Positions 10,371 through 16,265 of a DNA stretch of 64,000 nt are shown here, one piece after another. The notes under the pieces were generated by a model, which did not search any database, was not told the DNA's origin, and saw nothing but the letters and a program-made list of their open reading frames with translations. The DNA is taken from positions 1 through 64,000 of the forward strand of contig JAPLRS010000041.1 in NCBI GenBank assembly GCA_026399015.1. Reading direction: 5' to 3'. The first letter of the stretch is position 1; each line of letters opens with the position of its first letter. The position numbers and the translations under genes were made by a program. The stretch is from Methylococcales bacterium (GTDB taxonomy: Bacteria; Pseudomonadota; Gammaproteobacteria; Methylococcales; Methylomonadaceae).

Positions 10371-11717
10371 TTATTTCTTAAAGTAGCCACTCACCACCGC
10401 GCTAACAGACAATTCATTTTTAGCTAAAGGCTTGATAATCGTGAGCGCATCCAACAAAATCCTAAAAGCTCTAGGCACATTGCATATGTTTTCACGCACT
10501 AAATCAAAGGCCCCATAGACAGCTAAACACGCAAACTGCTTGATCAACGCATAATTATTTCTATTTAAGCCCGCCAAAATGCTAATCGATTCTTGGGCGT
10601 TAGAACCACCACATTTTAAATAATTAAACACCGCTGCTTTTAATAGATTGTTAGACATCACGCCATACAAGGCATTGGCTAATATATTTAAATTAGCATT
10701 AGCGCGCTGCCTATCTTGATAATAAGCTTCTATTTTTGTATGAATTAAATCATTGTTACTAAAGTCAGGCATGGCCAACAAATGCGCGCTTAAAATCTGG
10801 ATATCAGAAAAGACCGCCGTCAACCCACCACCGGTTAAAGGATGACGCATATTTAAAGCATCTCCTAACATAACTGCACCTTTACGAATAATCGGTTTTG
10901 CCGCCATGTAGTGATTAGGCATTACCTTAAAGCCACCTTCGTGCATGGCTTGTTGGTAACTTTTAAGCATCTCTGCTGGAATATAAGGTGTGACGTTACT
11001 GTCTAAATGCTCTTGTAATAAGGCTTTTCTAGGTAATTGATCACCCGGAAAGTCAATTAACAAGCGCACTTCATTAGATGAAATGGGATAACAAATAAAT
11101 GGAGTTGGGCCAGACAAAAACACATGCCCATGCTTAGGGAATGGCATTGCACAGTCTTTTAAAATAACGCCAATAAAGTACGAAGTCACCGACTTCTCAT
11201 TATTGCTTAAACTTTCTCTAAAATTTGAAAAGAAGCCATCACTGGTGATAGTTAAAGGCGCGTGTATAGATTTTATTTCTGAAGTGCCTTCTTCTCTATA
11301 ACTCACACCGATAATTTCATTACGCTCGTTTTCTAGCAATTGCAGCGCTTTGCCTTGTATTTGAGTAACGAAGTTATTTTTTAAAGCGGCGGCTCTGATG
11401 TTTTGTAAAAAAAGCCCATTGTGTAACCCCATGCCTTTATAACTAGCTGGGTAGGGAATGGTTATTTTTTGATCACCGTGTAACAACGCATAACCATCAA
11501 CCGGTTGCGCCTCGAAGCCTTCTAATAAATGTCCGAGTTGCATTTCTTCTAAAGATAACACGGCGCCCGGCTGTAGTAACTCCCCTACTATGCGCTTCTT
11601 TTCCTTAAAGCATTGATCAATCAAGGCAATTCTAATGCCTTTAGGTGCCAGATAAGCCGCGATAGTAGCACCGGCCATACCTGCCCCAATAATACAAATA
11701 TCAAATTCTGCTTTCAT
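10371..11717 (-). CDS. Squalene monooxygenase (squalene epoxidase)
   Basis: FAD-dependent epoxidation of squalene to 2,3-oxidosqualene, the committed step of sterol synthesis. The 448-residue protein has an N-terminal dinucleotide fold (DICIIGAGMAGATIAAYL, residues 6-23), VGELLQPGAV near 45, and the second FAD motif GDALNMRHPLTGGGLTAVFSD near residue 285. The C-terminal quarter is hydrophobic, consistent with membrane association. It is the last gene of the leftward operon, 44 bases after the oxidosqualene cyclase. Presence of the cyclase next door separates it from other FAD hydroxylases such as UbiH types. Confidence 0.9.
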   Translation of the reverse strand: MKAEFDICIIGAGMAGATIAAYLAPKGIRIALIDQCFKEKKRIVGELLQPGAVLSLEEMQLGHLLEGFEAQPVDGYALLHGDQKITIPYPASYKGMGLHNGLFLQNIRAAALKNNFVTQIQGKALQLLENERNEIIGVSYREEGTSEIKSIHAPLTITSDGFFSNFRESLSNNEKSVTSYFIGVILKDCAMPFPKHGHVFLSGPTPFICYPISSNEVRLLIDFPGDQLPRKALLQEHLDSNVTPYIPAEMLKSYQQAMHEGGFKVMPNHYMAAKPIIRKGAVMLGDALNMRHPLTGGGLTAVFSDIQILSAHLLAMPDFSNNDLIHTKIEAYYQDRQRANANLNILANALYGVMSNNLLKAAVFNYLKCGGSNAQESISILAGLNRNNYALIKQFACLAVYGAFDLVRENICNVPRAFRILLDALTIIKPLAKNELSVSAVVSGYFKK

Positions 11718-11761: not shown

Positions 11762-14005
11762 TCATCCTTGAATAATTTCCTTATAGTAGCGATTAAGCGC
11801 CCAGATTGGAAATATATTTCTATAATTAGCGTACGTTATCATGCAGTTGTAATTAAAAACACCCGAAATACTCTCCTGTTCCCAATCACCTTGATCTGTC
11901 TGCCTACTTTGCAATAAATTAATACCCGCAGCAATTACCGTTCTATCAACATTCTCTACAGCCAATAAAGCTAATACAGCCCAAGCTGTATTTACAACTT
12001 GCGAAGTTTCGGCCTCAGTATAAACCAACTTAGAGCAAGACTTAAAGGTCTCACCCCAACCGCCATCGGCTTTCTGTTTACTAACTAAAAACGCAACTGC
12101 GTTCTGCATACTATCCGCTAATACAGTGTCATTATAATAGCCTTTGCCTTTTGCTTTACTTAAAGCTTCAACGGCAAACCACGTAGCATAAGTAAAACAA
12201 ACTGCCCAACCACCATACCAAGAACCATCGGCTTTTTGTTGCTTAAGTATAAAAGCTAAACCTGCACTAATGGCTTTATGGAGTTCAGCGCTTTTATAGT
12301 CTGGATAAATATGTTGAATCTCTATTAAAGAAATAACACAAGCCGCCGTACATTCAGTCCAAGAATAGTCGATCATTATATCGGCAAACACTTCTGACGG
12401 ATTTAGTTTCTCCAACCACTTAGGCGCTCTTGATAACTCATAAGTTGCCCAGCCACCATCCTTATTTTGATATGACAAAATAATATCCACCGCTTGCTGA
12501 ATACGCTCCTCATCAATCGTTGGCTTAACCAAGCCCGACTCATGAACTGCCAAACTAGCACTTAAACCTTCTGCCGTACAATCTGCAACGGGCCAACCAT
12601 TCTCTGCCGTAGAAAACGGCCAACTACCGATCATAGGATGTCTAAAAAACTCCGAATGAGTAGCGTGTTCAGACTTGATTTGCGAATGCTCGATAAATTG
12701 ATAAGCTTTCTGAACAGTCTCTGGAAACAATTGGCCTAAATCACTCTCTAGTATGGCGCGCGTTGAAAAGGCGGTATCCCAAAGTTGAGAGCCATTATAA
12801 CCGCTCATCTTCATACCATCTTCTGCCACCCATAGGTAATCAAACCAACGCGTCACATGTTGTTTAAACTGTTCTGAGTCAGTACCGTAAGCGTGCCAGA
12901 TACAGATAGAATTAATTACTTTATTGACTGGACCAATATTAATGTAATCCGTTTGCTGATCTTCCGCATTTAAGTAGCGCAAAATGTAATCTGTCGCTTT
13001 TTTACGCAACCAACCACAACTGATTTTTTCATAACTGTTAGTGAATAAATTCATCCACTTTAATACTGGCGATAAAACCGTATACGAATCTTTATCACAC
13101 ACTGTATTACGTTGCTGAGGCCAATTAATCTCAGCATAGTCTTCGCTATAAATCTCTGTCCTTAGCGATAAAATCAAATCATTTTCGGGCATTTTGATAC
13201 GTTGCGCGTAACAATAAGCCATCGGCAAATACACCATACGACTATGGCACCAATAACGCCAAGGATGAAACGGTAACCATTTAGGAAATAACCACATCTC
13301 TGGAAACAGGCTATTAAAGCCCTGCCAGTCATATAAATTTAAGATGGATAAATAAAACTTACCCCAAGATGGAATACCCGTGGCACCACCATTAAGCTTA
13401 ATCCACGCTCTGGCTTTAACTAATGCCGGCTCATCTTTATCTACGCCCAACAACCTTAATGATACATATTGCATCACCGTGCCAAACATAGTCGATTCAC
13501 CTTCAATATGCATTCCCCAACCTGCATCTGCATTTTGGTGATTAAACAAGTAAAGCTTCATCATTTCTTGATGGGCTTTTGGAAATGGCGTGTGAGTGAC
13601 ATAAGAGGCAATTAATAAGCCCGGCAATAAAAATAATGGCCCACCATAATCGCCAGCCCAATGCCCATCCGCACTTTGTAAACTGGCAAAGTAGTTGATA
13701 CCCTTTATAACCGAGTCCGCTACTTTTTGCTGTTCAGGATTATTTGTTTGCGGCGTTACCCCTGTAAAACTTCTAAAGTTATTAGCGACCGCTACAAATC
13801 TAAAGACTTTATCACCTGAGTTGGGATTGACTTGCTTATCAAACTTAAAATCTTCCGCTGCTAAAGATATTTCCTGAGCCGAGATGTTATGGGCATTTTG
13901 TAAATGCTGATTGATATCCGTTGATGTTGGCTTAAAAGCCCAGATATGTCGGCCTTGCTCAGTTAATAACTGCCAGTTTTTCCAACTAGGTTTTACACTA
14001 TGCAT
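11762..14005 (-). CDS. Oxidosqualene cyclase (probable lanosterol synthase)
   Basis: Cyclises 2,3-oxidosqualene to a sterol skeleton. The 747-residue protein has repeated QW-type motifs (for example QSADGHWAGDYGG near 110, QNKDGGWATYE, QKADGSWYGGW, KQKADGGWGETF). It carries DCTAEG at 475-480, the epoxide-protonating Asp motif of oxidosqualene cyclases rather than the DXDD of squalene-hopene cyclases. Two residues before the Asp is Val (V473) and six before it is Asn (N469); Val there is lanosterol-synthase-like, cycloartenol synthases having Ile. It starts 5 bases after the NTF2-like gene in the sterol operon. Lanosterol as product is inferred from these residues and from Methylococcus. Confidence 0.93.
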   Translation of the reverse strand: MHSVKPSWKNWQLLTEQGRHIWAFKPTSTDINQHLQNAHNISAQEISLAAEDFKFDKQVNPNSGDKVFRFVAVANNFRSFTGVTPQTNNPEQQKVADSVIKGINYFASLQSADGHWAGDYGGPLFLLPGLLIASYVTHTPFPKAHQEMMKLYLFNHQNADAGWGMHIEGESTMFGTVMQYVSLRLLGVDKDEPALVKARAWIKLNGGATGIPSWGKFYLSILNLYDWQGFNSLFPEMWLFPKWLPFHPWRYWCHSRMVYLPMAYCYAQRIKMPENDLILSLRTEIYSEDYAEINWPQQRNTVCDKDSYTVLSPVLKWMNLFTNSYEKISCGWLRKKATDYILRYLNAEDQQTDYINIGPVNKVINSICIWHAYGTDSEQFKQHVTRWFDYLWVAEDGMKMSGYNGSQLWDTAFSTRAILESDLGQLFPETVQKAYQFIEHSQIKSEHATHSEFFRHPMIGSWPFSTAENGWPVADCTAEGLSASLAVHESGLVKPTIDEERIQQAVDIILSYQNKDGGWATYELSRAPKWLEKLNPSEVFADIMIDYSWTECTAACVISLIEIQHIYPDYKSAELHKAISAGLAFILKQQKADGSWYGGWAVCFTYATWFAVEALSKAKGKGYYNDTVLADSMQNAVAFLVSKQKADGGWGETFKSCSKLVYTEAETSQVVNTAWAVLALLAVENVDRTVIAAGINLLQSRQTDQGDWEQESISGVFNYNCMITYANYRNIFPIWALNRYYKEIIQG

Positions 14006-14010
14006 AGCTT

Positions 14011-14613
14011 TTAACGATTAAATAAAGCAATACGCACCATTGCCATAAAGCCTTTGAATTTCTTAAACAAACTAGGCTGTGGTCTTAAGCGCTCATGACC
14101 AGGTAATAATTGACCTTTTGCTAATTTACCAATTTTTGTTTTTACTGCAGGATCTAGTTTCCCATCACCAGCCAACTCAAAAAACAAGGCTTTTACATTA
14201 CCTAAATCAAAGAAATCGCGTTGCCATTCCCATTTATAGTTGCCGCCATAACGAAACCAAGAACCGCCAATCCCTTCTACTTGATAATGCGTACCATCTT
14301 CTCGCACTGCTGGAGAAACTTGGGTCCATAAACCAATAACCTCACCCTGTTTTTCATCAATTAAAATACGATGATAAGGATAACGCCATTCTTCAAAACC
14401 TTCCATTTGTACGCCTAAGGCCCACTCTTCAATCTCTTTACGACTGCGCGCGACAAACTCTTCATTTGGACCAATATTCCAACGGTATTCCGCATCATCG
14501 GTATACATTGCCCCTAAATATTTAGGCCAGTTACCTTCTTTTTCTGCGTCACGGTTAGCTTGTAACCAACGTTCTACCATTTCTTCAAGTTCTGCTCTGG
14601 GATATGCCGCCAT
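14011..14613 (-). CDS. NTF2-like (SnoaL/ketosteroid-isomerase fold) protein of the sterol operon
   Basis: A 200-residue protein. Residues 1-140 look like an NTF2/SnoaL alpha+beta cone: an N-terminal helix (ELEEMVERWLQANRDAEKEG), MYTDDAEYRWNIGP, and closing strands ending in WEWQRDFFDLG. The last 30 residues are basic and amphipathic (FKKFKGFMAMVRIALFNR) and may touch the membrane. It sits between the cyp51 fusion (11-base gap) and the cyclase (5-base gap), so it is cotranscribed with sterol genes. The fold includes ketosteroid isomerase, so a role in sterol modification, binding or handover is possible, but no catalytic assignment can be made from sequence alone. Confidence 0.7.
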   Translation of the reverse strand: MAAYPRAELEEMVERWLQANRDAEKEGNWPKYLGAMYTDDAEYRWNIGPNEEFVARSRKEIEEWALGVQMEGFEEWRYPYHRILIDEKQGEVIGLWTQVSPAVREDGTHYQVEGIGGSWFRYGGNYKWEWQRDFFDLGNVKALFFELAGDGKLDPAVKTKIGKLAKGQLLPGHERLRPQPSLFKKFKGFMAMVRIALFNR

Positions 14614-14624
14614 GGTTGTCTCTA

Positions 14625-16265
14625 TTACGTATTTGTGGTTTTAATAAGAATTGCTTTGGTAGGGCAATATTTTTCAGCGAGCTGGGCTTTTTCTAAAGCC
14701 TCTAAACTAGGGTTATCCTGAAGTACCGTCACATTGCCTTCGTCATCTACCTGAAAAAGCTCTGGTGCTTCTGCCATACAAGTCGCATGCCCTTGACATA
14801 ATTCTCTATCTAAATAAATTTGAAAGCCTGTTGGTTCAACGGTTAACGTCTGCGCCACGCTAGACTCAGCAATTTCTTCAGTACTGGCCTGTAGATTCTT
14901 GCGCTTAACATAACGCACTCGACAAGGTGATAACGGTTGCACCACCATCTGCGTAAAATCATCTTGATATTGGTCTTTTTCATCAACCAATTCAAAAGTA
15001 TAGCGTCGTAATAAGATGCTAAAAATAGCTTTTAACTGCAACATAGCAAAGGCATTGCCCGTACACTTATGCTTGCCACCACCAAAAGCAATCCAACTAA
15101 ACGGTCTTGCATCTTCTTGGCGTTCTTCTGAATACCGCTCTAAATCAAACTTTTCTGGGTCAGGAAATATTTCTGCAATACGATGTGAAACGCGTGGCGA
15201 AGCGCATACGTATTTACCTGCCTTAACGGTATACCCTTTAAAGTGAAAATCCTTCATCACTTTTCGAATTAAAAAGATCAATGGCGGATGCAATCGTAAG
15301 ACTTCTTTAACAACATTCTCTAGAACCGGAATTTCACGCAAAGACTGAAAAGTCACTTCACCATCAAAACCAAACAGTTGATCTAATTCCGTTAAAACCA
15401 ACTCCAATTGCTCAGGTCTTCTAGCTAATTCTAATAAAGTCCAAGCGGCAGTCCCAGCAGTTGTATGATGACCTGCGAAGATAGTCCCAATCAACATACC
15501 TGTAATTTCATGGGGTGATAAAGCCGTGCCATCATCATATTTTGAATCGATTAATAACTGAAATGCATCATCACTTTTTTCAGCTTTTAAAGCTCTTTTA
15601 GCAATAATACCCGTCACTAACTCTTGTAAGCGAGCTCGCGCTTTATCTCTGCGACGAAATACGGGGAGTGGCAAGTACGGAAAGACAAATGCTAAAGGAT
15701 TAACGCCTTTTTCCAAATCATGATAAATCTTGGCAAATTCTTCATTTAACTCATAACGAAACTCATCACCCAAGAGACAATGACTAGAGGTGTAAATTGT
15801 GAGTTCTTTCATGAACTCCAACAGATCAATTTCACCTGTTTCACCCCAGCCGGCAATCATATCTTCGACTTCTTGCACGATAACTTGCGCATAGCCACGC
15901 ATAGGTTTATCACGCAAAACTGGCATTAGCATTTTGAGTTGTTGATCTTTTTTATGCGGAGGCGCATCAAACACGACACCTTTACCAAAAATAGGCGTCA
16001 TTATTTTATAAGCTTGGCTTTGATCAAGCTGTGCATCGGGCGCACGAAAAAAAGCCTCATTAGCTTCTGGGCCCGTCATCAAAACCATTTTCTGATGAAA
16101 CATACGAAACTCGCCTATTTCTCCTAGGCTGTTTCTAAGATTCATCATATATAAAAAAGGATTTTTGCCGAACTTGAGCATGTGCCCAAAGAGAGGTAAT
16201 GCACCCGGCATTTTTGGAGGCTCTAGACCTAAAGACTGGGGTTGTTCTTGATTTGGTGTTGTCAT
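14625..16265 (-). CDS. Sterol 14-alpha-demethylase CYP51 fused to a ferredoxin
   Basis: Removes the 14-alpha methyl group of lanosterol by three monooxygenase cycles. Residues 1-455 are a cytochrome P450: the I-helix GTIFAGHHTTAGTAAW, ExxR (VVKEVLRLHPP), and the heme loop FGGGKHKCTGNAFA with Cys401. After a short linker, residues about 470-546 form a ferredoxin with CQGHATC and a distal CP (YCPTKAI), the three-cysteine pattern of [3Fe-4S] ferredoxins. The same fusion is known from Methylococcus capsulatus. There is no N-terminal membrane anchor, unlike eukaryotic CYP51. It is first in the sterol operon; the promoter should lie in 16266-16394. Confidence 0.95.
   Translation of the reverse strand: MTTPNQEQPQSLGLEPPKMPGALPLFGHMLKFGKNPFLYMMNLRNSLGEIGEFRMFHQKMVLMTGPEANEAFFRAPDAQLDQSQAYKIMTPIFGKGVVFDAPPHKKDQQLKMLMPVLRDKPMRGYAQVIVQEVEDMIAGWGETGEIDLLEFMKELTIYTSSHCLLGDEFRYELNEEFAKIYHDLEKGVNPLAFVFPYLPLPVFRRRDKARARLQELVTGIIAKRALKAEKSDDAFQLLIDSKYDDGTALSPHEITGMLIGTIFAGHHTTAGTAAWTLLELARRPEQLELVLTELDQLFGFDGEVTFQSLREIPVLENVVKEVLRLHPPLIFLIRKVMKDFHFKGYTVKAGKYVCASPRVSHRIAEIFPDPEKFDLERYSEERQEDARPFSWIAFGGGKHKCTGNAFAMLQLKAIFSILLRRYTFELVDEKDQYQDDFTQMVVQPLSPCRVRYVKRKNLQASTEEIAESSVAQTLTVEPTGFQIYLDRELCQGHATCMAEAPELFQVDDEGNVTVLQDNPSLEALEKAQLAEKYCPTKAILIKTTNT

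Follow-up and report, generated by a model that had tools for sequence, protein, structure and literature searches.

A probable 8,14-sterol reductase encoded between cyp51 and the oxidosqualene cyclase gene in a Methylococcales bacterium

Background

The question raised by this locus is what the one unnamed gene of a bacterial sterol operon encodes. The window (the whole 64,000-nucleotide stretch of Methylococcales DNA analysed) contains at 14011-14613, on the minus strand, an ATG-started ORF of 200 aa, recovered in an ORF check of the window, which a sequence-only reading had taken for an undescribed bacterial sterol enzyme, a sterol carrier or a CYP51 accessory. Judged from its homologues and predicted fold, with function taken from a Methylococcus capsulatus orthologue described in a recent report (PMC13277303), we put at roughly 95% the probability that this gene, with its NTF2-fold product, is the methanotroph form of the bacterial 8,14-sterol reductase (8,14-Bsr).

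Gene and operon layout

The gene is separated by 11 bases (14614-14624) from the preceding cyp51-ferredoxin fusion (14625-16265, minus strand; PF00067 and Fer4_15), whose product joins a P450 to a 4Fe-4S ferredoxin and, as the sterol C-14 demethylase, would supply the substrate. On its other side, a gap of 5 bases (14006-14010) leads to an oxidosqualene cyclase gene (OSC; 11762-14005, minus strand; SQHop_cyclase/TIGR01787, 685 bits, over the cut-off), followed after 44 bases by squalene epoxidase, a monooxygenase (SQE; 10371-11717, minus strand; PF08491, 266 bits). With all four sterol genes on the minus strand, the spacing makes their cotranscription as cyp51-bsr-osc-sqe likely; a promoter and terminator scan gave chance-level matches only. 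The coordinates, length and 11- and 5-base gaps of the sequence-only reading proved exact on recheck, and the neighbouring sterol genes (cyp51-ferredoxin, OSC and SQE) are recognised by their Pfam and TIGRFAM domains.

A search of GTDB genomes returned 105 stretches encoding relatives of the window protein, of which 80 (64-100% identity), overwhelmingly from Methylococcales, were kept, and an alignment of 40 members has 70 invariant columns. The ORF is therefore not a chance reading frame. NCBIfam lacks a model for the 8,14-Bsr family, none of the 40 members giving a match.

A characterised orthologue

8,14-Bsr was described in May 2026 by Lee, Giner and Welander in J Bacteriol (PMC13277303). 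The M. capsulatus Texas gene H156_RS0106965 was picked there by comparative genomics, and its occurrence in the sterol clusters of methanotrophs and membership of the NTF2 superfamily were noted. Alone, it had no effect in lanosterol-making E. coli; when the M. capsulatus CYP51-ferredoxin was expressed as well, no 4,4-dimethylcholesta-8,14,24-trienol remained detectable, all of it having been turned into 4,4-dimethylcholesta-8(14),24-dienol, as confirmed by NMR. Two distant homologues, one from Mycobacterium tuberculosis and one from an uncultured Sandaracinus, carried out the same conversion less efficiently (PMC13277303). Activity was lowered by the substitutions D133A, Y43F, Y43A, Y37A and Y78A and not by D136A, Y80F, Y80A, Y37F or Y78F, so that the M. 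capsulatus enzyme needs the Y43 hydroxyl, D133 and aromatic residues at positions 37 and 78 (PMC13277303).

The window protein is 68% identical, without internal gap, to the homologue at the M. capsulatus Texas locus L072, which is the single one in that genome, just as the window's own genome has a single one. We take L072 to be H156_RS0106965 because the strain is the same, there is no second homologue and the residue numbers match: Y37, Y43, Y78, Y80, D133 and D136 have the same numbers in the window protein and are invariant in the 40 members. The two proteins thus share these six pocket residues, the NTF2 fold and the partnership with a Cyp51-ferredoxin; they differ in gene setting, the M. 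capsulatus gene being unlinked to cyp51 whereas the window gene lies inside the cyp51-bsr-osc-sqe operon.

A bacterial sterol enzyme was correctly anticipated in the sequence-only reading, since orthologues turn the CYP51 product into an 8(14)-sterol; "undescribed" no longer applies, the enzyme having been published in May 2026 (PMC13277303). The enzyme family has been known since that date, and the window gene, so assigned, encodes in a further methanotroph an enzyme already described. As a small, soluble protein of NTF2 fold that has a basic helical tail and is encoded next to cyp51, it could in principle be a carrier of sterols or an accessory of CYP51, passing intermediates between enzymes and performing no chemistry. 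Yet the M. capsulatus orthologue fully converts the CYP51 product, pocket point mutants lose turnover, and in E. coli CYP51 forms its product even when 8,14-Bsr is absent (PMC13277303). Product formation refutes a carrier or accessory role for the M. capsulatus orthologue, and the same findings leave both proposals unsupported and very improbable for the window protein.

Co-occurrence with cyp51

Among 151 Methylococcales genomes, the 8,14-Bsr gene and a close CYP51 (E below 1e-150) each occur in 59; 58 genomes have both, 91 have neither, and one is discordant each way. The association is strong (Fisher p about 1e-39, a value that overstates independence as the genomes are related), and both discordant genomes are incomplete MAGs (G507, 83%; G509, 72%). 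The co-occurring CYP51 orthologues are 57-98% identical. In 65 of the 80 GTDB loci cyp51 lies at most 2 kb upstream, on the same strand (within 200 bases in 61 of these), and in 7 further loci it is on the opposite strand of the same fragment. Only one of 398 other Pseudomonadota genomes (G032) carries the gene, and there too it stands beside a cyp51-ferredoxin fusion (L093). The homologues therefore track cyp51, and the wide spread through bacteria without sterol genes that would have told against a sterol function is absent from these genomes. Our counts cover Methylococcales and other Pseudomonadota; the occurrence in Mycobacteriales and myxobacteria is taken from PMC13277303.

Within the 35 loci holding all four sterol genes, 8,14-Bsr ranks first in conservation at 32, with a median identity to the window of 91.5%, compared with 84% for CYP51, 82% for SQE and 77% for OSC. 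This degree of conservation fits the report that deletion of the 8,14-Bsr gene was attempted in M. capsulatus and failed (PMC13277303).

Predicted fold and C-terminal tail

At the sequence level, the relationship of the window protein to other NTF2 proteins is weak: the Pfam families SnoaL_2 (21 bits against a gathering cut-off of 27) and SnoaL_4 (15.9 against 24) both stay below threshold, and PDB searches with the single sequence and with a profile gave no convincing solved relative, the matches being designed or unrelated proteins. The predicted fold is clear. An AF2 model (40 alignment rows; pLDDT 93.6, pTM 0.86) has the helix and strand order expected for NTF2 proteins and, beyond that, a C-terminal extension with a terminal helix, and Foldseek relates it at E of about 1e-6 to 1e-5 to SnoaL-like cyclases, NsrQ-type isomerases, PhzA/B, limonene epoxide hydrolases (LEH) and 3-ketosteroid isomerase (KSI), in agreement with the NTF2/KSI-type fold proposed from the sequence.

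Since the KSI structure 6uad is among these matches and the fold class is the same, one might suppose that the protein is a KSI-type enzyme that only shifts double bonds. KSI and SnoaL-like proteins of the NTF2 superfamily do share with 8,14-Bsr a cone fold with a hydrophobic pocket; they differ in their pocket residues, in lacking a significant sequence match and in not performing a reduction. We reject the KSI hypothesis, which we consider the least probable of the alternatives, because no KSI in the PDB is matched by the single sequence or the profile, the KSI catalytic residues do not align (PMC13277303) and the orthologue's reaction adds two hydrogens overall, a net reduction.

The terminal helix (residues 182-198; 14020-14070, minus strand), delimited from AF2 secondary structure and hydrophobic moment, corresponds to the basic amphipathic tail noted earlier; it is basic (net charge +4/+5) and moderately amphipathic (muH about 0.3-0.47). 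A contact with the membrane or with CYP51 is possible. The helix has no counterpart in the distant Nonomuraea and Sphingobium homologues described below, and the tail is therefore not essential to the family.

Reaction mechanism

CYP51 strips the C-14 methyl group from lanosterol to leave a conjugated 8,14-diene, and 8,14-Bsr then adds two hydrogens across the ends of this diene, at C-15 and C-9, leaving a single 8(14) double bond. In the mechanism that we propose, Y43, acting as the acid with help from D133, would protonate C-15 to give an allyl cation spanning C14-C8-C9. The hydride would then be delivered to C-9, with NAD(P)H as its most likely source. Reduction and apparent isomerisation would then be a single 1,4-addition, because hydrogens at C-15 and C-9 of C9=C8-C14=C15 give the 8(14) product directly. 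Such a one-step addition agrees with the authors' failure to separate the two activities by mutation (PMC13277303). The order of events in that report is the opposite one, with hydride at C-15 followed by a proton at C-9 (PMC13277303).

The C-14 reductase ERG24 (PF01222) likewise takes the CYP51 product and reduces its delta-14 bond, and a Tyr acid and an Asp may be common to both enzymes. It differs from 8,14-Bsr in being a membrane protein of unrelated fold, with a known NADPH site and a delta-8 product. An unactivated diene is in general a poor hydride acceptor. This, together with the precedent of ERG24, for which protonation of C-15 by a Tyr acid with an assisting Asp is reported to precede NADPH hydride transfer to C-14 (PMC12489058), leads us to favour the proton-first order (C-15 proton, then C-9 hydride), to which our analysis gives moderately better odds than the reverse.

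The 8,14-Bsr report finds no recognisable NAD(P)H site in the enzyme (PMC13277303), and we regard NAD(P)H as the probable hydride donor. An 8,14-Bsr that draws its electrons from the ferredoxin domain fused to CYP51 instead is an improbable variant. In its favour, every CYP51 co-occurring with 8,14-Bsr is reported as fused to or co-localised with a ferredoxin (PMC13277303), as is Cyp51 beside the window gene and in the G032 and Nonomuraea clusters described below, and the reported CYP51-dependent assays had the CYP51-ferredoxin fusion expressed alongside 8,14-Bsr (PMC13277303). Against it, an isolated diene is difficult to reduce in one-electron steps unless a flavin takes part, and no flavin is known or predicted in this case.

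Other sterol enzymes of the host genome

No match to PF01222 was found in the window's own genome (86% complete) or in that of M. capsulatus, and the window protein itself has no Pfam match to this family; the same search gave 412-414 bits in the positive-control genomes containing L032 (Methylotuvimicrobium buryatense) and L041 (Methylomicrobium sp. wino1). An EBP isomerase was likewise not matched in the window's own genome (86% complete), in a search that had no strong positive control, and no SdmA scored above the cut-off there, two other genomes being positive. These absences are provisional because of the 86% completeness. With no ERG24, EBP or SdmA detected, removal of the 14-ene in this genome has 8,14-Bsr as its sole visible candidate, and from the lack of a detectable SdmA or ERG24 homologue we infer that the host sterol, and the product expected to accumulate, is 4,4-dimethylcholesta-8(14),24-dienol.

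Variant loci and distant homologues

A number of loci show other arrangements. Those of a Methylocaldum/Methylumidiphilus-type lineage (L066, L068, L071, L073, L074, L075, L076 and L080) encode downstream an OSC only about 36% and an SQE only about 22% identical to those of the window, with 8,14-Bsr (64-70%) and CYP51 (about 60%) much closer. The OSC of L071 passes TIGR03463 with 983 bits, whereas the window OSC fails it (655 bits against a cut-off of 851). It is possible that OSC and SQE entered the two lineages independently. In a Bathymodiolus japonicus symbiont (L047:8639-11210), cyp51 and 8,14-Bsr are followed not by OSC and SQE but by the sterol C-4 demethylation genes SdmA (NF052579) and SdmB (NF052578), both over the cut-off, and related Methyloprofundus-type loci also have no OSC or SQE on the fragment.

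Outside the class of the window organism, the cluster in the Pseudomonadota genome G032 (L093:5059-9234) comprises a cyp51-ferredoxin, a 3beta-HSD-like short-chain dehydrogenase (SDR), 8,14-Bsr and a 276-aa membrane-type protein, which we presume to resemble plant cycloeucalenol cycloisomerase and which has no Pfam or NCBIfam match. The cluster probably modifies imported sterols, because no oxidosqualene cyclase was found in this genome with the family model used.

Two further groups came from tblastn of plasmid records. In Nonomuraea gerenzanensis (L095:4260-6543), cyp51, a separate ferredoxin and an 8,14-Bsr of 55% identity that ends before the C-terminal helix stand in a row; this is an actinomycete of the Streptosporangiales, an order that the available part of PMC13277303 does not name for 8,14-Bsr. 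The other group is represented by TomTYG73_30440 on plasmid AP027340.1 of Sphingobium sp. TomTYG73 (L094:12001-12528), which is 30% identical over 178 positions, keeps Y37, Y43, D133 and D136, lacks the C-terminal tail and has Phe in place of Y78, a change tolerated in M. capsulatus (PMC13277303). Its steroid-degradation cluster includes a 3-oxosteroid 1-dehydrogenase, several SDRs, a putative oxygenase and a TonB receptor, and no annotated cyp51 occurs in the 24 kb read. Similar homologues (about 30%) are found on plasmids of other Sphingobium isolates, and isolates bearing these strain names are described as alpha-tomatine degraders (PMC10653915). These Sphingobium homologues suggest a wider family of steroid-acting NTF2 proteins. 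A more ambitious and still speculative proposal, which we hold to be rather unlikely as a whole, is that 8,14-Bsr, as a soluble enzyme of NTF2 fold, binds NAD(P)H though it has no known cofactor motif, protonates C-15 and passes hydride to C-9, within a wider NTF2 reductase family whose steroid-degradation members in Sphingobium act independently of CYP51.

Significance

Identification of the gene as 8,14-Bsr would explain the sole unnamed member of the window operon and would account for the 8(14)-sterols that characterise these methanotrophs. The high conservation of 8,14-Bsr provides a clear set of residues for probing how an NTF2 fold carries out a reduction without a recognisable cofactor site.
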